From: a virus
Direction: 5' to 3' (one strand)
IMG/VR virus record: IMGVR_UViG_3300015171_000024
Location: 1-28,250 of that record
DNA length: 28,250 nt
In this document: positions 4,339 through 19,121 of the stretch, piece after piece
Numbering within the stretch: position 1 is the first letter of the stretch
Layout of the letters: every line of letters starts with the position of its first letter
The notes under the pieces: model-generated
The model's input: only the letters and a program-made list of their open reading frames with translations
What the model was told of the DNA's origin: nothing
The model's database searches: none
Position numbers and translations under genes: made by a program

Positions 4339-5481
4339 TTAGGTGCGGGTGATTTGTAAGTGCGCCGCCGTCACGGAATCGTAAAGCGCGCGAAATTGGA
4401 GTGTCTGCATAACGTCCGCGTCCACGCCCGCGATTTCCTGATTCACGTCCGGCAGTTTGATCTTGGGCAGCAGAACAGTGTAGGTGCGACCAGAGAGCGG
4501 ATCAGCTATCACGAACGAGAACGACGTGGAGCCGTTCGTAAGGAACTGATCGTAGAGCGCGCCGCTCTTGAAGTAGCAGTCCATTTGCCCGGTCAAGTCC
4601 ATCACGCCGCGACCGAAGTCGTCCGACGCCTGACTCTCGACGTGATCGTGGAGGCGAAGGTTGTTGTGCAGGCTGAATTTCAAGGACTTCACCTTAATGC
4701 CCGTCATGTTGGTGTTCGTCTCGATGTTCGTGATTTGCGGCCCGCAAGGAATAGGCGGGGATACCGTCTGCGCCGTCTGACTCGCCGATACGGTTGCGCC
4801 GGAACGTGTCGCCTGCGCTCCCATGAATCCGAAGTTGCTCATAACGATCTTGCGAGCGCTCACGTCCAAGTCCCATGTGTTCACCGCGCAGCCTCGGAAC
4901 TGGAAAAACTGCGGAAGGTCGAGGAAACCTTTCTCGATAAGAAACGAGCGATTGACGACGCCGTTCTTAATGATGTTGCCGGTCGAGCGCGCCTTGACCG
5001 TGAAGGATAAGGCCGAGCCGCTGGCGGTCGCCGCGTTTGAGAGCACAATGGTTGTCCCGTTTGTCACCGACGAGATGGTGGTGTTTGGTGGGATGTTCGT
5101 GCCGGTGATAGAACGTCCGACATCAGGGGCCGTGAATGCGCCCGTCGCGCTCGTGAAAGTCGTGCTGGCATTAGTTGTCACGCCGTCCGCCAGCGTAACG
5201 TCTCCCTGTGTTCCCCATGTGCCGCACATCGCGGCCTCGATGAGCATGTCGAAAGTTCCGTAAGATAACTCAGCGTCAATCGCGCCCGCTACGTCAACGC
5301 CAAGTAGGATAAGGTCGCTTCGCATCCGGTCGGAGCGAATCTCGTTGCTGACCGTGGTGGAGTTTTTGTGCGCGATCGTTTCCTTGAGGAAACGCAGCTT
5401 TTGCATGACCGGAGTAGCCGGGACTTCGTTGAATACCGTCTCAGTCGAGAGTAGTAATTGGCCGCGCGAGGAATCAGACAT
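4339..5481 (-). CDS. Major tail-tube protein
   Basis: 380 aa. It polymerises into the tube of the long tail. The N-terminal part (GQLLLSTETVFNEVPATPV, then IAHKNSTTVSNEIRSDR) and the C-terminal part (SLHNNLRLHDHVESQ, then GQMDCYFKSGALYDQF) match the tail-tube fold of siphoviruses in which a Lys/Asp beta-sandwich is split by an inserted domain. The insert at about residues 93-165 is Thr/Ser/Gly/Val-rich (TLADGVTTNAS, VGRSITGTNIPPNTTISSV), a common Ig-like surface domain of tail-tube proteins. The ATG at 5481 has GGAG nine bases upstream. It follows the tail-terminator gene after a 64-base gap and precedes the chaperones, the conserved siphovirus order. No truncation is seen. Confidence 0.88.
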   Translation of the reverse strand: MSDSSRGQLLLSTETVFNEVPATPVMQKLRFLKETIAHKNSTTVSNEIRSDRMRSDLILLGVDVAGAIDAELSYGTFDMLIEAAMCGTWGTQGDVTLADGVTTNASTTFTSATGAFTAPDVGRSITGTNIPPNTTISSVTNGTTIVLSNAATASGSALSFTVKARSTGNIIKNGVVNRSFLIEKGFLDLPQFFQFRGCAVNTWDLDVSARKIVMSNFGFMGAQATRSGATVSASQTAQTVSPPIPCGPQITNIETNTNMTGIKVKSLKFSLHNNLRLHDHVESQASDDFGRGVMDLTGQMDCYFKSGALYDQFLTNGSTSFSFVIADPLSGRTYTVLLPKIKLPDVNQEIAGVDADVMQTLQFRALYDSVTAAHLQITRT

Positions 5482-6393: not shown

Positions 6394-6761
6394 TTTCTGA
6401 TTTTGATTGTCACGGTTGCCTTCACCGGGTCAGGCCGAACATCGTAAACCGTCCAGAGCACAGAATTGATGAGCACGGTGAAGCCATTCACGATGTCGCC
6501 GCTAAATCCGGCTGCGATCAGACTGGCGACGCGCACTAGCAAGGTAGCAGTCCGAGCCGCGTCCTCCGCTAGCTTCTGATCGTGCGTTTGATAGAGGAAG
6601 CCCTTGACTGCGTAGGAAGTGCCGCCCGTGGTTGTATCGGTCACGGGATTGTAGCTGCCGCCATTCGTCGTGATCGTCGTCGCAACTGTAGCTTGCCCGG
6701 CAAGATCGAAAGCTAACGCGGTCGCATTGTCCGCGAGCGTCTTTATGTCGATCTGGCTCAT
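6390..6761 (-). CDS. Head-tail connector / head-closure-like protein
   Basis: 123 aa from the ATG at 6761, which overlaps the preceding stop as ATGA. A longer frame to 6860 exists but would lie inside the upstream gene, so I reject it. The sequence is beta-rich (TVATTITTNGGSYNP, GTSYAVKGFLYQTHDQKL, GFTVLINSVLWTVYDV) with a C-terminal Lys-rich strand VKATVTIKIRK. Position between a DnaT-like connector and an HK97 gp10-like protein suggests the head-closure (stopper) protein. The family cannot be confirmed without a structure-based search; the call rests mainly on gene order and size. Confidence 0.6.
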   Translation of the reverse strand: MSQIDIKTLADNATALAFDLAGQATVATTITTNGGSYNPVTDTTTGGTSYAVKGFLYQTHDQKLAEDAARTATLLVRVASLIAAGFSGDIVNGFTVLINSVLWTVYDVRPDPVKATVTIKIRK

Positions 6762-7333
6762 TGCCCGCGCCGCACGCGCACCTGTCCGCGACCGTAACGA
6801 AACGAGTGAACCAGCTTGACTAGCATCCGTTGCGCTTCCTCGGTAAGCGGTTGCTGCCAATCACCTTCGCGTTCCGGCTTAAATACCATCCGAACCGCGC
6901 CCGCTACATCAATGGATTGAATCCCTTTCTGTCCTAGCTCAAGCGTGCGATCCGTTCGAATCAAGTCCTGCGCTACGTGCGCGGTCGCTTGGCTTAGGTA
7001 ACTCGGAATCTTCGTGTCGTCGAAATAGTTGGCGAACAGCGCCGAAATTCGCCCCGGCATCTGACCATAGAAGTCATCGTTGCGCGCCCTGATGCGCGGC
7101 CATTCCAAACTCTGTGTCTCTGACTTCCGCCAGCCGCGAAAGTTACAACTCTTGTCAATCACCCGCGTTGCCATCGCGAGCGCCACCTTCTGCTTGTCTG
7201 TTACAGACGCCGCTGCCGTCCAGTCCGCGTTGTAAAGGCTCGCATCGTGATACGCCTGCGCGTCAACGAGGCTGCAATAGCTGTTCGCATTAGCTAGGCC
7301 AGTTCCATCCTCGACGACGAGAGTGAAGGCCAT
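6758..7333 (-). CDS. Head-tail adaptor, DnaT-like domain protein
   Basis: 191 aa. The N-terminus has the pattern of the phage DnaT-like putative adaptor family: VEDGTGLANANSYCSLVDAQ, AYHD, then VALAMATRVIDKSCNFRGWR, and TQSLEWPRI. The conserved AT..ID, RGWR and SLEWPR elements are all present. Despite the family name, location next to neck genes argues for the portal-proximal adaptor (head-tail connector 1) rather than a replication role. The C-terminus is helical and basic (LVKLVHSFRYGRGQVRVRRGQ). It starts at an ATG with GAGG close by and ends in an ATGA overlap with the next gene. Confidence 0.75.
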   Translation of the reverse strand: MAFTLVVEDGTGLANANSYCSLVDAQAYHDASLYNADWTAAASVTDKQKVALAMATRVIDKSCNFRGWRKSETQSLEWPRIRARNDDFYGQMPGRISALFANYFDDTKIPSYLSQATAHVAQDLIRTDRTLELGQKGIQSIDVAGAVRMVFKPEREGDWQQPLTEEAQRMLVKLVHSFRYGRGQVRVRRGQ

Positions 7334-7354: not shown

Positions 7355-7750
7355 TTATTGCGCGACGAAACCGATTTTCAATACCCCGGCGAGCGCGTTC
7401 GTGGCGTGCGTGTTAATCACGTTCACCGTGAACGATCCCGCGCTAACGCCAGTAATTGTGACGTAAGGCACGCCGTTGGTGAAATATGTTCCGCTATAAT
7501 TCAAGATCGACGGAATCACGACCTGATTGGCCGTAACTGCCTTGCTCGATACAACGAATGAGGACACGGATGCCGCCGCCGTAGTTGCATTAAAGGTCGT
7601 GATGACGCCCGCTGGCGCATCCAGCGTCACGCCGGTCGTGAGTGACGTGATCTGCGTGACCGCCGCTTGACCTTGATAGTTGGCTTGTCCGAAGATTGGC
7701 GACACGCAGAGAGCGAGAATCGCCAGCATTGCAATCAGTTTGTTTTTCAT
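7355..7750 (-). CDS. Secreted beta-rich putative virion protein C (131 aa, Sec signal)
   Basis: 131 aa. Residues 1-21 form a clear Sec signal peptide: MKNK, a hydrophobic core LIAMLAILALCVSPI, then FGQA. The mature part is Thr/Val/Ala-rich and beta-stranded (TQITSLTTGVTLDAPAGVIT, then VSAGSFTVNVINTHATNALA). This pattern is common in phage head- or tail-fibre-like and decoration domains, so the body looks like a virion protein while the N-terminus looks exported. It is the last of three adjacent genes with the same architecture. AGGA lies about 11 bases upstream of the ATG. Function is unknown; a surface or adhesion role is possible but not shown. Confidence 0.7.
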   Translation of the reverse strand: MKNKLIAMLAILALCVSPIFGQANYQGQAAVTQITSLTTGVTLDAPAGVITTFNATTAAASVSSFVVSSKAVTANQVVIPSILNYSGTYFTNGVPYVTITGVSAGSFTVNVINTHATNALAGVLKIGFVAQ

Positions 7751-7795
7751 GTTTTTGGGTTCCTGCTCTTTTGCTGCGTTTATCCTAACGAAAGT

Positions 7796-8350
7796 TTAGT
7801 AATAGAAGCCAACCAGATGCACGGTGGCGACACTTGTCCCGCCCGTGGCCGCTACCGTGACCGGCAACGTGATAACATCTGCCGCCGCGAACGCGTTACT
7901 CGTTCCTTGTAGCGTAAGAGTTTGCACTTGCCCGACTAAAGGTGTCGCGTTCAACGCGCCGGATGCCACGATACTGGTCGCACTCGTTCCCGTGCTTCCG
8001 ACCGATAACGTAGGAGCGGTTGTAGCTCCCGCCGTCGTGCATTCCACTTTGACCGCAATAGCGATGAACTTCACGCCCGCAGGGATCGTCAATAGATTCG
8101 TGGTAGCTACCGCCGCGAGGTTGACGTTCGGCACCGTGATGTCGAACGGGATGCCCTTTTTCAACGCGGCCATCGTCGTGTATTTGTTCTGCCCGGCAGA
8201 CTCGATGCGAACATAATCAGTCGGCCCGAGCGGTTCCGTTGCTTTGCGGAGTTTCTTACTGATCGAAAACTCGGGCGCAAAATTCTGCGCGGTGACGTTA
8301 GTGACGAAAGCGATGGCGAGCGTCACCGCGAGAATTAGTTTTAGCTTCAT
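7796..8350 (-). CDS. Secreted beta-rich putative virion protein B (184 aa, Sec signal)
   Basis: 184 aa. Signal peptide at residues 1-21: MKLK, core LILAVTLAIAFVTNVTA, cut before QNFAPEF. A charged segment follows (SISKKLRKATEPLGPTDYVR), then a Thr/Ala/Val-rich beta domain with AVKVECTTAGATTAPTLSVG and an aromatic end LVGFYY. The C-terminal end resembles the end of the preceding gene (LVGLY), and the sequence around the two stop codons is similar, which suggests partial duplication. It lies between two other signal-peptide genes and downstream of the capsid genes. No Shine-Dalgarno site is visible. I recognise no named family; the mature domain looks like a decoration or spike-type domain. Confidence 0.7.
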   Translation of the reverse strand: MKLKLILAVTLAIAFVTNVTAQNFAPEFSISKKLRKATEPLGPTDYVRIESAGQNKYTTMAALKKGIPFDITVPNVNLAAVATTNLLTIPAGVKFIAIAVKVECTTAGATTAPTLSVGSTGTSATSIVASGALNATPLVGQVQTLTLQGTSNAFAAADVITLPVTVAATGGTSVATVHLVGFYY

Positions 8351-8395
8351 AAGGTTTGGGATTACAGCCGATAGGTTACGTTGTCGAGAGGAAAT

Positions 8396-8770
8396 TTAGT
8401 AAAGACCTACAAGGCCCGTCGCGGTAGTGCCTGTTGCATAAACCTTTTTCACTTGAATTGGCAGAATGAATCCGACCGCATTAGTGCCAACCGTAAAGGT
8501 AACTGCCGTGCCCGTGCCGACCATATCCACTTTGATCGTGCCCGCACCGCCCACGAAAATTCCTCGCACGCTGCTCGACAGATTCGCACCATCGTTAGGC
8601 GTAATCGCGAAAGCGTTCACCGGAGGCGCGGTAGCTTTCAGCATCTTTTGATCGGTCAACAGCGACGTATCTCCATTCATGGGGAGTAACGTCGAAAATG
8701 CCTGTTCCGCTGCGCTCGCCGCCGCGACAAGCAGGAAACTTACCGCGATGATTGCGAGAAGTTTTTTCAT
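8396..8770 (-). CDS. Secreted beta-rich putative virion protein A (124 aa, Sec signal)
   Basis: 124 aa from the ATG at 8770, chosen because it gives an ideal signal peptide (MKK, then LLAIIAVSFLLVAAASA, cut before AEQAF). An ATG at 8791 would add seven residues ahead of the basic start. The mature part contains SSSVRGIFVGGAGTIKVDM, AVTFTVGTNAVGFILPIQV and KKVYATGTTATGLVGLY. This second half matches the layout of small phage structural proteins that carry VxVGxxGxxxV...ILPVxVxxVxxTGTTA. In known phages such proteins have no signal peptide. It starts 52 bases after a palindrome copy and is probably the first gene of the secreted trio. Confidence 0.7.
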   Translation of the reverse strand: MKKLLAIIAVSFLLVAAASAAEQAFSTLLPMNGDTSLLTDQKMLKATAPPVNAFAITPNDGANLSSSVRGIFVGGAGTIKVDMVGTGTAVTFTVGTNAVGFILPIQVKKVYATGTTATGLVGLY

Positions 8771-8822
8771 GTTGTGCGGAGTGTGGTTCATTCTATTCGT
8801 TCTGTCGAATGTTTATTTTCGA

Positions 8823-8850
8823 GAGCGTTATTCGAAAAACCGAATAACTC
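8823..8850. repeat. 28-bp palindromic hairpin repeat, copy 2 (inverted)
   Basis: Same arms GTTATTCG and CGAATAAC, here as the full reverse complement of copies 3 and 6. Its edge (8849-8850) supplies two bases of the TGA stop of the small upstream gene. It lies between that gene and the secreted protein A gene. Confidence 0.9.
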
Positions 8851-10117: not shown

Positions 10118-11131
10118 TTAGAGGATGACGTTGTGCTTGATCGCAACCATGCGCACGTTTTTCGCCTCATAAACGCGCGACCAGTTGCCCGACAAGGCCA
10201 ACTCCGCATTGCTCGGAGAAGGGCCAGCCATACCCGCAGCGCCCGTCCATTTCACCCCGCGAGGGTGCAACAGGAACCGGCGACGGTTGATCATCACGTT
10301 TTGACCTGCGAGCGCGACGCGCGAGAACTCTAATTGCCAAGTCCCGAAGCCGCCCTCGATAGGATCATCCGTGCCACTCACCCCGAGCGCGATAGCGCCA
10401 AGGCCGAACATGACGCTCGTGTATTGCAACGCGCCGTTGACCGTAGCCACTGGCATGTTGTCATCCACGATGACTTCCAGCCCTTGAAACGTCGCGATCT
10501 GTTCGCGTGCGTCTGTGACGGGGATGAAGTCGATCAAGTCCAGTTTCATCAGACTAGCTTCCACCGCAGAGTGCATCGCGATAGCCACCAGCTTCCGCTT
10601 CGCGTCTCCGAGAAGTTGCTTTGCATTGATGAAGTTCACGCCGTTAAGCGTGTTGTCGGTTACAACCGTGCCGGGAGCCGCCAACGAGACATCAGTCTGG
10701 TTGCCACTCATTGTGCCGGTTGCGAACACGCCCTGCAACATGGCGATCAACTGATCTTCATGCCGACGGGCCCAATAATCTGCCACCAAGTCGCCGATGG
10801 TTTTCATCGGGTCGGAGCCAGAGAGATACTTCGCAAGGTCGTGAGTGCTCCACGCGTCAGCGCGGTTATGGATCACACTGACATCTGCGGTCGCCCCGAT
10901 TTTCTTCGTCGTGAGCGTTCCCGTGTCAGTGATGATTTGATCACTACCCTGCAAATCCTGCCAGAAAGGCATGTTGATTGTTTGACCGCCGCCAGCCGCG
11001 AGAGTCGCGAAAGCAGGATCAACGTCAACGATGCCGGATGCGAAAAACCGCGAGACTTGCGCCGTCCGTTCCACAACGTAGGGCAAGAACTCGGCTGGCA
11101 CGATCACATCGGAGATTTGCGTATAAGCCAT
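10118..11131 (-). CDS. Major capsid protein (HK97 fold)
   Basis: 337 aa. It forms the icosahedral shell. The opening MAYTQISDVIVPAEFLPYVV, then TAQVSRFFASGI, is typical of a broad family of phage coat proteins, followed by GGGQTINMPFWQDLQG (E-loop/N-arm region) and AWSTHDLAKYLSGSDPMKTIG. The helix DYWARRHEDQLIAMLQGVFA is the spine-helix pattern of this family. The C-terminal part has LEVIVDDNMPVA and LSGNWSRVYEAKNVRMVAIKHN, also family-like. Length is normal. AAGGAAAG lies about 11 bases before the ATG, and a candidate promoter plus structured leader occupies the 248 bases upstream. No protease fusion or long scaffold domain is fused to it. Confidence 0.92.
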   Translation of the reverse strand: MAYTQISDVIVPAEFLPYVVERTAQVSRFFASGIVDVDPAFATLAAGGGQTINMPFWQDLQGSDQIITDTGTLTTKKIGATADVSVIHNRADAWSTHDLAKYLSGSDPMKTIGDLVADYWARRHEDQLIAMLQGVFATGTMSGNQTDVSLAAPGTVVTDNTLNGVNFINAKQLLGDAKRKLVAIAMHSAVEASLMKLDLIDFIPVTDAREQIATFQGLEVIVDDNMPVATVNGALQYTSVMFGLGAIALGVSGTDDPIEGGFGTWQLEFSRVALAGQNVMINRRRFLLHPRGVKWTGAAGMAGPSPSNAELALSGNWSRVYEAKNVRMVAIKHNVIL

Positions 11132-14573: not shown

Positions 14574-14759
14574 CTACTCCTCGACGATTCGGGCTAGCTT
14601 GTGAAGTTCGCAATACAAATCCAGCTTGACCATTTCCAGAATGCCAATCGTCTCCAATACCGTCATTGTTCCGTAGCGACCCCTTACGAGTTGGTGAATG
14701 TCGGCATGAAGGTATTCGCTCTGGCTCAGCGGAATTTCATCTGCCGCTCCTTCGCTCAT
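14574..14759 (-). CDS. Unknown small protein between portal and MuF-like gene (61 aa)
   Basis: 61 aa: MSEGAADEIPLSQSEYLHAD, then a helical half with LETIGILEMVKLDLYCELHK and LARIVEE. It has a good GAGG ribosome site and overlaps the portal end by 23 bases. It looks like a compact helical protein. Role unknown; portal-associated or head-completion is suggested by place only. Confidence 0.65.
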   Translation of the reverse strand: MSEGAADEIPLSQSEYLHADIHQLVRGRYGTMTVLETIGILEMVKLDLYCELHKLARIVEE

Positions 14760-16332
14760 ACCGCGCCCTCGCCGGATGCCGTCCCGCTCTGGTCGCCCTG
14801 TCGCCCCCGCCTGCTCCTGCCAGTGCCATAAGCATAGATTGCCCGTCCTTGATCGCCGCTTTCTCCTCCTCCATGTCGCGGCCAGCCGGGATAAGTTCGC
14901 CTTGCTGCAAGTTGGTAAAGAACACTTCGAAACTCATGCCGCCACCGATAAACACTTGGAACAAGCTTTGAAGCGTTGCCGCGTCCATCTTCGTTCCGAG
15001 GAAGTCAGTCGTGAGCGTGTAACCCACTAGCTTCTCGGCATCTTCTGGCGTCGCGAGGCTGCGCTGACACCACCAGTAAGCCCATGCCAGAACGTCCGTC
15101 ATACTAAGACTAAGCGCGAGCGAGATGCTGGTTAGAACGGCTGTCTCCCCGGTCTGCCTTAGCGCCACCGTCGCGTAAGCTTCCGGTGAGCGACCTAACG
15201 AATGTTGTTGATCCAGCATGCGCGCGCCTAGCGCCGCCATGTGCCGCTCTTTTCGCACCACGGCATCGTCCAGCGCCTTCAAGCCCGTGCCGCTCAACTC
15301 CAAGAATCCGGCCTTGGCGTTCGGCTCACTCGTGACCAAGCATTGCGTCGATCCAAGCACGACATCGGCGGAAGCGGTGTCCTTGAATCCGGCGAGATAA
15401 GGAGTCGGCACGCCCAAGAAGTGCAACGCATTTTCTAAGTCGGCGCTCGTCCGATACATGGAAAGGTTCACGTTTGCCATGTCCATTAGCGGCGGACGCT
15501 CTACGCTGTCGCCGTGCGGCCCGACCGGGCTATGGAACACAAACGGAATATCCGTGAGCGCTTTTGCGCCGCGTCGCGGAAAGTAACTGTTGATTGCCAC
15601 GAAGTCCTCTGCCTTGGACGTTCCTGCGCTCTCGCTTGGCCCCGTTCCCGGCAGGCCAGCTTGGTTGGTTCTTTTCGCTGATCCCTTTCTGCGCCGCCAA
15701 ACTATGCACGCGACAAACTCGCCGCCTTGCCCATCGCTAACCAGCTTCCACTCGCGCCATTGCTCGTAGTTGACCTGAGCGTAACCGTCCGGCGCTTTTG
15801 TTCCGTCGCCGGTGTTGACGTAAACATCACTTTGCTCTTTCAGGACGAGAAGCGAAAGCGTCATCCGGCCCCGAATGCGCGTGTATTTCCAGTTGATGAT
15901 GTCGCTCGCGTTGTAGTGCGTTGCGTAGGGCTGATTTTCTTCCTCGTTCCAATCTATGATTGTCCCGCAGCGCCCGTAAACTAGCACGCCCTTGGCTACA
16001 TCGGCGCACAAGTCATAAAACGCTTTCCCGGTCAGCGTGGCGTCCGCCACAAACGCGCTTACTTGCGGCCCCGGATTGGCGGGCAACTTGATGTCTGGGT
16101 CTTTCCTGAACAGGAATCCCATTAGCGCGGAAGTCGTGCGCCCGGTCGCGTTAAAGAAGTCGGCGCGCATCTTGTATTTGCCGTATTCCTCTGTGTCCTG
16201 ATCGCTCAGGAGAGGCAGATAGCGCTCATTCGCTTCCTTAACTGCTTCCTCGCCGCCTTCGACGATGTCCTGCATCGTGCGCCAACGCCCTAACGCAAAA
16301 TCATAGGAAGGGTGTGTGCTGTCGACCGGCAA
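14737..16332 (-). CDS. Portal protein (DUF4055-like)
   Basis: 531 aa from TTG at 16332, chosen because GGAGGG lies seven bases upstream and it follows the preceding stop directly. It forms the dodecameric DNA channel at one capsid vertex. The N-terminal GRWRTMQDIVEGGEEAVKEA, then ERYLPLLSDQDTEEYGKYKM and RADFFNATGRTTSALMGFLF, is the typical start of the DUF4055 portal-like family (RYLP.L, then FNATGRT). Middle parts RCGTIIDWNEEENQPYATHY, ASDIINWKY, and ATVALRQTGETAVLTSISLA fit the stem and crown. The C-terminal 40 residues are Gly, Arg and Ala-rich and may be disordered. It precedes the MuF-like gene in the usual order. Confidence 0.88.
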   Translation of the reverse strand: MPVDSTHPSYDFALGRWRTMQDIVEGGEEAVKEANERYLPLLSDQDTEEYGKYKMRADFFNATGRTTSALMGFLFRKDPDIKLPANPGPQVSAFVADATLTGKAFYDLCADVAKGVLVYGRCGTIIDWNEEENQPYATHYNASDIINWKYTRIRGRMTLSLLVLKEQSDVYVNTGDGTKAPDGYAQVNYEQWREWKLVSDGQGGEFVACIVWRRRKGSAKRTNQAGLPGTGPSESAGTSKAEDFVAINSYFPRRGAKALTDIPFVFHSPVGPHGDSVERPPLMDMANVNLSMYRTSADLENALHFLGVPTPYLAGFKDTASADVVLGSTQCLVTSEPNAKAGFLELSGTGLKALDDAVVRKERHMAALGARMLDQQHSLGRSPEAYATVALRQTGETAVLTSISLALSLSMTDVLAWAYWWCQRSLATPEDAEKLVGYTLTTDFLGTKMDAATLQSLFQVFIGGGMSFEVFFTNLQQGELIPAGRDMEEEKAAIKDGQSMLMALAGAGGGDRATRAGRHPARARYERRSGR

Positions 16333-16604: not shown

Positions 16605-17357
16605 TTACTTGTCTGTCACTAGCGCGATTTCCCCGCCTTCCCGCAAGAGCCTATCCATGATCGAATATGGCATCCAGACTTCGGGGTAGGTTATTCCCCA
16701 CGAGTTTTTGATGCGGAAAGCTTGGCGTTCGTCGCTCGCTCCGTAAACAGCAACGCAATGCCCGCCGCGCACTACGCCTAAGTCGCCGGTCTTGCCAATC
16801 CAGTATTCGCTGTTGTCGAAGGTCGGAGTGAAAAAGTTCGCATACCAATTCACGCCGATAGACATTGGCACGCCCTTGGCGATAGCTGCGCGCATTTCAT
16901 CCACGGTTTGTGCCCATCGCACGGTGTCAATTCCATAGTTGGAGTCAACCGGCCCGATGCTTTTACGATCTTCTTCATCCATCCAGACAACGTGCCCCTG
17001 CGTTGTCAGAATCTTGCACGCGGCGCTGACCGTTGTCCCATTCCCGTCGCCGGGGTTTGAGTCTGGAAACTCGTCAACCACCTTGGCGCTGTCCCATAGC
17101 CACCAAGGATTGTAACGAACGTAGGGTGTCTTATCTCCTTTCGACCGGCACACTCCTTCGTGCAGGATTGAGAGCATCATGGAAGTCCCGAAGCCTACGC
17201 AAGCGCCCTCCTCTCCTTGATCGTGCTTGGCGTGCCAAGTTGGCAGCACGAGACTTTTCTCCACCGGCTTGGTTGCGGCGCTGATCGCCGCGCCCATCGG
17301 CATCGCCCTAACGTGGTCGAAGTTTAGCGGGGGTCGTCGTCCAAGTCCGTTGCTCAT
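16605..17357 (-). CDS. Papain-like cysteine protease (C1A)
   Basis: 250 aa. It would cut peptide bonds; substrate is unknown. The catalytic set is complete: oxyanion-hole Gln47, nucleophile Cys53 in DQGEEGACVGFG (Gln-to-Cys spacing of six, as in papain), His200 in GVVRGGHCVAVYG and Asn218 in IKNSWG. Further family landmarks are YNPWWLWDSAK and GVPMSIGVNW. There is no signal peptide and no long propeptide; the N-terminus has only about 45 residues before the active site. It lies just upstream of the portal, so head or tail maturation, scaffold removal, host-protein cleavage or lysis are all possible. It is not a typical phage prohead protease (those are S14, S49, S78 or U9-like folds). Confidence 0.85.
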   Translation of the reverse strand: MSNGLGRRPPLNFDHVRAMPMGAAISAATKPVEKSLVLPTWHAKHDQGEEGACVGFGTSMMLSILHEGVCRSKGDKTPYVRYNPWWLWDSAKVVDEFPDSNPGDGNGTTVSAACKILTTQGHVVWMDEEDRKSIGPVDSNYGIDTVRWAQTVDEMRAAIAKGVPMSIGVNWYANFFTPTFDNSEYWIGKTGDLGVVRGGHCVAVYGASDERQAFRIKNSWGITYPEVWMPYSIMDRLLREGGEIALVTDK

Positions 17358-18139: not shown

Positions 18140-18447
18140 CGCGCGTCCTCGGTTGGCGGCTGCAATGCCCGCACGAGCGTTGTGCCGTTGATTGTCTTAG
18201 CAATCGGATTCATTTCGACGGCAGGCCCGCGCCGCGCGCCCGTGAATCCCGGTGGCGTCGGCGTAGGCTTCACTTTCTTTTGCAGAGTAGCGCTAGCTTC
18301 GATGCGCGCGCTGGACTCCGGTTGTTTCGCGCTCTTTTTCTCCACGTAGCTGTTTAGGCTCAGGGCTGCACAGAACAGCAGCACGATTCCGATACTGACC
18401 GCGAGCATGATGCGCTCGGTTCGTTTCGTTCTTTCTTCGTATGTCAT
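18136..18447 (-). CDS. Single-TM protein (103 aa)
   Basis: 103 aa from ATG 18447, with ATGA overlaps at both ends. A basic cytoplasmic start (MTYEERTKRTERIM) leads into a TM helix at about residues 13-31 (MLAVSIGIVLLFCAALSLN), followed by a Ser, Pro and Thr-rich outer part (KPTPTPPGFTGARRGP). Topology is N-in, C-out. An inner-membrane spanin or a small envelope protein is possible; there is no cysteine lipobox. It is coupled to a secreted 225-aa gene upstream and a TM gene downstream. Confidence 0.65.
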   Translation of the reverse strand: MTYEERTKRTERIMLAVSIGIVLLFCAALSLNSYVEKKSAKQPESSARIEASATLQKKVKPTPTPPGFTGARRGPAVEMNPIAKTINGTTLVRALQPPTEDAR

Positions 18448-19121
18448 TTTCTCATTCTCCTTTTCATTGTTAACTGCGTTGTCTTTCTGATCTTAAAAAC
18501 GGGGTGAACTTCCCATGCTGTTGCGCGCCAGTTCGCTTTCGCGCCGGGATGCGTGTTCTCAGCGCTCGGAGCGTGGATCGCGTCGAAGAATAACAACCCC
18601 ATGACCGCGATTCGCTGGTGCAGCATAGCCGCGACCTGTTGATAGGTGAATCCAACTCGCGCCGCCGTATGCGGAGTTACTTCCACGATGACGTAGCGCC
18701 GCGCGTTCCCGAAGTCTTTCGGATCGCTTACAAGCGCGATGTGCCAGTCGCGGTGCGCCAAGTCTTTCGCGCCGCAGTTGCAGCTTTCAATCCCGCCGCG
18801 CTTCACTTCCGCAACGTAACCAGTTACCTCGACGCCTTCCGACTTGAATCTTTTGGCGTCGCTCCCCGGCCTGAGCATCGCCTCAAGCGTCACGCTCTTG
18901 TCGATCGTCGTGTAGGAAAGTTCCCGATTCTTTAGCGGGTTGCCGATCTTCTCCAATCGCGTTTTTGCCGTCCCTTCGGGCGGACACGGCGTCACGGCGC
19001 TCGCGGAACACGCGATTGCCATTGCGAGGATCGCGCAGGCGACGTTTTTACCCCTCGCGGTAAGGTTTGATAGCGGGACGTGGCTGCGACGATTCCTAGA
19101 GCGTTTTAGCGGCTTTCTCAT
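18444..19121 (-). CDS. Secreted protein of unknown function with CNC motif (225 aa)
   Basis: 225 aa from ATG 19121 (AAGGA five bases upstream). An unusually long basic n-region leads to a Sec core at about 26-43 (VACAILAMAIACSASA). The body has VTGYVAEVKRGGIESCNCGA, then DWHIALVSDP, RRYVIVEVTP, MGLLFFDAIHAP and NWRATAWEVHPVFKI. These blocks (CNC, DWHI, VIVEVTP, LFFD, WRATAWEVHPV) recall a widespread uncharacterised extracytoplasmic bacterial domain, though I cannot name it. Cys and His/Asp placement suggests metal binding. It may have been taken from a host and could act on the envelope during infection. Confidence 0.65.
   Translation of the reverse strand: MRKPLKRSRNRRSHVPLSNLTARGKNVACAILAMAIACSASAVTPCPPEGTAKTRLEKIGNPLKNRELSYTTIDKSVTLEAMLRPGSDAKRFKSEGVEVTGYVAEVKRGGIESCNCGAKDLAHRDWHIALVSDPKDFGNARRYVIVEVTPHTAARVGFTYQQVAAMLHQRIAVMGLLFFDAIHAPSAENTHPGAKANWRATAWEVHPVFKIRKTTQLTMKRRMRK

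Follow-up and report, generated by a model that had tools for sequence, protein, structure and literature searches.

Why should genes that lie among the head genes of a tailed phage encode proteins with Sec signal peptides, when tailed-phage assembly is taught as wholly cytoplasmic? The question is raised by a tailed-phage contig of 28,250 bases (28 kb; hereafter the window), a virus record with its morphogenesis series on the minus strand. An initial annotation had described three adjacent virion-like proteins at positions 7355-8770, each with a Sec signal peptide, and had suggested signal-peptide prediction and structure prediction of the mature parts as checks. The three genes, here called A, B and C, were indeed found at these positions as minus-strand open reading frames with canonical signal anatomy, and the coordinates given earlier are correct.

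The morphogenesis series comprises genes for the large terminase (24244..25731, identified by alignment with relatives), the portal (14737-16332), the major capsid protein (10118..11131; phrog_247, 1.8e-95), the head-tail adaptor (6758..7333; phrog_477, 1.3e-31) and the tail tube (4339-5481), all on the minus strand. The cassette lies in the interval from the major capsid gene to the head-tail adaptor gene and is transcribed in the order C-B-A from the same strand: gene C at 8396..8770, gene B at 7796..8350 and gene A at 7355..7750. Two hydrophilic genes separate the capsid gene from C, and the adaptor gene is directly 3' of A. Elsewhere in the window, a papain-like cysteine peptidase (16605-17357; phrog_16701) is encoded just before the portal gene, and in phage record MW202426 (L149) a similar peptidase gene is found directly before that of the spike base. 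A further predicted exported protein (18444-19121 and L159:11476-12048), which gave no family match in the profile search, has a conserved CNC.AKD.AHRD motif and is common to the window and the contig of one relative (L006, below).

Signal calls were made with an n/h/c scorer written for this analysis, not with SignalP, and canonical Sec signals were obtained for all three proteins. With a slash marking the cleavage site, the signal of C (8711-8770, 20 aa) reads MKK-LLAIIAVSFLLVAAA-SA/AEQ and is cut at ASA/AE, that of B (8288-8350, 21 aa) reads MKLK-LILAVTLAIAFV-TNVTA/QN and is cut at VTA/QN, and that of A (7688-7750, about 21 aa) reads MKNK-LIAMLAILALCVSPI-FG/QA and is cut at IFG/QA. Their h-regions consist of 12-15 uncharged hydrophobic residues, and the anatomy recognized by Sec and signal peptidase I (basic n-region, hydrophobic h-region, small residues at -3 and -1) is present in A, B and C as well as in 12 relatives. 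When the residues of each protein were shuffled, the chance of an equal score was 0.0017 for C, 0.0047 for B and 0.036 for A. Judged by this anatomy, the signal peptides are real, and export and cleavage of the three proteins are predicted.

A chance or artefactual origin of the signals was rejected on the basis of these shuffles, of conservation in four relatives and of absence from 29 other C homologues. A wrongly assigned start of A was likewise rejected: a downstream in-frame GTG inside the signal has no ribosome site, and the upstream ATG is preceded by AGCAGGAA. No clear Shine-Dalgarno sequence precedes B or C. Gene C has an additional in-frame ATG at 8791, but its relatives begin at MKK, in agreement with the start proposed earlier. 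A lipoprotein of the Llp kind was also dismissed, as the lipobox [LVI][ASTVI][GAS]C is missing, the signals of B and C contain no Cys, and the ALC of A does not fit. The mature parts contain 3 Cys in about 2,580 residues, compared with 36 in about 4,790 residues of seven other phage proteins; this scarcity weakly favours exposure outside the cytoplasm, the capsid protein also having 0 Cys.

The mature part of C is clearly homologous to phage spike bases. It matches the RcGTA head spike base Rcc01079 (6tb9/6tba; E 6.8e-14 to 6tb9) and the phrog_12296 bases (1.7e-19 in the profile search) over the whole spike-base domain, is also homologous to a second solved phage spike base (8cjz) and, like the RcGTA gene, is encoded in the head region. 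In RcGTA, pentamers of Rcc01079 sit on capsid vertices, to which they attach through their N-termini, and bear a capsule-binding fibre (PMC7296036). Unlike Rcc01079, C bears a signal peptide followed by a linker of ~30 aa, which corresponds in position to the capsid attachment site of RcGTA bases (PMC7296036). This linker (LPxNGDxxxLxxxQKxL) shows 45% identity in L006 and is found again behind the signal of the base of another relative, L061; it is absent from the C protein of L008. An alignment of eight C proteins was too divergent to be used for scanning. A further difference from the RcGTA arrangement is that the next gene, B, starts with a signal peptide and not with the MxLGLGL start of a fibre; several other C homologues likewise have no leucine/glycine-rich fibre neighbour.

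Structure prediction for the mature parts of A and B gave models of unequal quality. That of B is a low-confidence beta sandwich (pLDDT 56) whose nearest structures are the capsid cement proteins KHP40, GP4, KHP30 and Pam1 (prob 0.99-1.0, with E-values of 5e-3 to 2.6e-2, that is, above 1e-3); unlike these proteins, B carries a signal peptide, and it has no sequence match to them. Protein A matches the fibre-tip profile phrog_18251 (E 1.9e-9), and its model (pLDDT 83) resembles H-type lectins and tailspike C-terminal domains with marginal E-values (TM 0.58-0.61 by target length to H-type lectins), as well as many uncultured phage proteins. Domains of the A type are widespread in phages, standing alone or at the C-terminal end of long fibre proteins; A itself stands alone and differs from tailspike ends and lectins in carrying a signal. 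The description of the three proteins as virion-like thus holds for C as a member of the Rcc01079 family, for B through its low-confidence cement-like model and for A through its lectin- and tailspike-like model.

The lineage, found by means of the capsid protein, has five members including the window, each on a single contig, and the tail-fibre region is covered in only two. Each of the four relatives encodes homologous proteins with signal peptides. In L006 (capsid 78% identical), A, B and C all have signals and occur in the order A-B-C. In L008 (capsid 61%), A and C have signals and lie on the strand opposite to the capsid gene. A contig of 69 kb, L061 (capsid 58%), encodes a signal-bearing B upstream of the portal gene, together with a 582-aa fibre and a 151-aa base that both have signals. 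The fourth relative, G005, is circular (92 kb, with ends overlapping by 127 bases), and its terminase is 53% identical to that of the window; here A, a base resembling gp13 of Sinorhizobium phage phiM5 and a 1571-aa fibre each carry a signal. Cassette genes are scattered or on the opposite strand in L061, L051 and L008.

The two relatives in which tail-fibre genes could be inspected, L061 and G005, are syntenic, gpJ being followed by one small gene and then by the signal-bearing fibre. In G005 this fibre ends in a Peptidase_S74 domain at its C-terminal end, the intramolecular chaperone of phage tail fibres. Its signal has a long, weakly charged n-region and therefore scores 8.5, below the other signals. 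Between the L061 and G005 bases the identity is 43%, and to phiM5 gp13 (phrog_22789), whose family has no member in the window itself, it is about 45%. In contrast to its two homologues, gp13 has no signal; it is encoded 3' of the phiM5 capsid gene, and its annotation records detection in the phage particle. The gene that follows the L061 base, likely a fibre by position, also has no signal.

Outside the lineage the picture is different. Among the matches listed, a signal was found on 3 of the 32 distinct C-domain proteins, all three from the lineage, and on none (0/29) of the C homologues outside it; the corresponding figures were 5 of about 46 distinct proteins for the A domain and 3/3 for B. 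Some 40 loci outside the lineage with a related capsid gene, again among the matches listed, showed no comparable gene near it. Of seven capsid matches in host genomes, six were scanned, and in none of these was a comparable signal-bearing gene seen close to the capsid gene. The A and C proteins of the window had no match among cultured phages. With the C protein of L008 as query, P8625 and phages of Flavobacterium, Caulobacter and Rhodobacter were matched, and no signals were seen on the C homologues of the cultured phages examined (P8625, immuto, elemo and Cr30). A search of the phylum to which an Opitutae MAG belongs (388 genomes) gave a single C match, at a phage-like spike locus and without a signal.

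One virus outside the lineage, L053 (IMG/VR UViG 2639763017_000002), nevertheless has three consecutive signal-bearing genes (L053:5848-7271), the first encoding an A-domain protein and the third a fibre-like protein. Its A gene had no match in the class to which a Mesorhizobium belongs (385 genomes), and the other two genes had none among cultured phages. Because L053 stands outside the lineage, the signal-bearing feature may have arisen more than once.

Putative regulatory sequences accompany the cassette. A near-palindromic hairpin repeat (8827..8848, inverted) lies just upstream of C and is one of seven near-identical copies in the window (4309, 8827, 13343, 16541, 18036, 23972 and 26955), with the sequence GTTATTCG-AAAAA[C/T]-CGAATAAC; the copies, of which none is expected by chance, are mostly in intergenic gaps, were not found in the relatives and are possibly promoters, operators or RNA-processing hairpins. 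A second motif, TTGAC[A/G]-N17-TAC[A/T][A/T]G, occurs only three times in roughly 220 kb searched: at L006:10229-10265 and L008:3998-3960, where it ends 7 and 10 nt, respectively, before the first ATG of the cassette, and at 11377-11349 of the window, about 220 nt before the capsid gene. It is promoter-like, and as a promoter in L006 and L008 it would give nearly leaderless transcripts.

Unusual starts were also noted on other proteins. In two related contigs, a common N-terminal leader, MK..LF.F..LS..AGG, takes the place of the usual start on the capsid protein, the tail tube and a small decoration-like protein (L007:610-1683, L007:4683-5984 and L007:58-432; L008:1236-2387 and L008:4047-4385; L273:2384-3715). 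It resembles a double-glycine leader, whether or not it is cleaved, and its presence on virion proteins of the cytoplasm is a combination for which we know of no precedent. About 2.6 kb after the capsid start, L011 and L143 (a Mesorhizobium soli prophage) have a 97-aa gene in which an export-type start, MNRRAFLGAIGLAPVAAVASVAKPAYA, is fused to a GGYVGERGPEAIVPL motif resembling the terminal part of a tape-measure protein.

What, then, is the function of these proteins with predicted export? The most likely explanation suggested by the sequences is that A, B and C serve as adhesins of the virion and are synthesized as Sec preproteins. We tentatively propose that the spikes, cement-like proteins and fibre proteins are made in this form and dock on virions at lysis. 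According to this model, A, B and C would together form the spikes and head decorations of a tailed phage. The preproteins would cross the inner membrane via SecYEG, signal peptidase I would remove about 20 residues, and the mature proteins would fold in the periplasm. At lysis they would meet spike-free capsids freed from the cytoplasm; C would dock through its new N-terminal arm, just as Rcc01079 uses its N-terminus, with B and A providing the parts that bind the surface. Glycan-binding adhesins held outside the cytoplasm until lysis could thereby avoid premature clumping. For the lineage as a whole, completion of virions outside the cytoplasm, with Sec-secreted capsid spikes and tail fibres joined to heads and tails at lysis, is a possibility that we put forward with still more caution.

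A rival to docking at lysis, which we consider rather doubtful, is that the proteins form an exported surface-masking set: secreted adhesin domains of virion origin would cover glycans on the infected or lysogenic cell and block re-adsorption of progeny or superinfection, in the manner of T5 Llp, from a different protein family. Products of the T5 Llp and lambda Lom types are exported phage proteins, and the lom gene lies among structural genes; A, B and C resemble them in their predicted export and differ in having no lipobox, unrelated sequences and virion-type folds. The signals on A, B and C and the likeness of A to lectins and glycan-binding tailspike ends would suit such masking, as would the scattered or opposite-strand positions in L061, L051 and L008 and the promoter-like motif close to the first ATG. 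Indeed, the opposite-strand cassette of L008 and this motif fit an independently controlled moron and thus speak against docking. So do the missing linker in the C protein of L008 and the unsigned gene after the L061 base, which would place a base and its likely fibre in different compartments. Against masking, no outer-membrane anchor or lipobox is seen, and the same signals are found on a capsid-docking spike base and on tail fibres of the gpJ locus. Docking is favoured over masking because the signals occur on several components of a single machine, among them capsid-docking bases and tail fibres, for which a decoy would have no use, and because the linker of C is conserved at the place of capsid attachment in RcGTA bases; the position of A, B and C in the head module supports it further.

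Two other explanations appear weaker. The hydrophobic starts might not serve export at all and instead be retained and packed in a hydrophobic pocket of the virion, for which the leucine-rich N-terminus of the RcGTA head fibre (Ile-Ala-Leu-Gly-Leu...), packed into the base pentamer, sets a precedent (PMC7296036). This is unlikely, because similar segments precede unrelated folds (base, cement-like, lectin-like and fibre) without one common docking site and have proper cleavage sites, mostly AxA/Q, after basic n-regions; moreover, homologues elsewhere have no such segments, and the segments do not look like the known fibre N-termini of this type (MxLGLGLSL). More improbable still is that the genes are morons for secreted adhesins serving the host or lysogen in attachment or biofilm, with domains that virions merely have in common. 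Bacteria do encode secreted proteins with tail-fibre and S74 domains, and the cassette genes are small, shuffled and independently oriented. Against this, C, the base resembling phiM5 gp13 and the A domain had phage relatives in all searches, and the one C match in the phylum of the Opitutae MAG belonged to an unsigned, phage-like spike locus.

The initial annotation had offered several roles, namely coating of the host surface, modification of the released virion from the periplasm, or adhesins or exclusion factors that use virion folds, and its interpretation is supported in part. What stands is that the signals are real by anatomy, kept in relatives and absent from homologues elsewhere, and that the families to which the mature parts belong are those of virion spikes, cement-like proteins and fibre tips. 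Virion adhesins that pass through Sec are somewhat more likely than adhesins or exclusion factors only borrowing virion folds, because the fibre after gpJ in L061 and G005 and a homologue of the virion-detected phiM5 protein also carry signals.

The domains are already known; signal-bearing virion spikes or tail fibres were not found described in the literature searched on signal peptides of tailed-phage virion proteins. For annotation, the locus cautions that a signal peptide does not exclude a virion protein among phage genes. Virion parts of this small tailed-phage lineage are probably sent out of the cytoplasm, and such export of head-stud and tail-fibre proteins is not predicted by known virion assembly. 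The lineage would either finish its particles outside the cytoplasm or secrete virion adhesins that control the host surface, and either outcome would be a new use of known parts.
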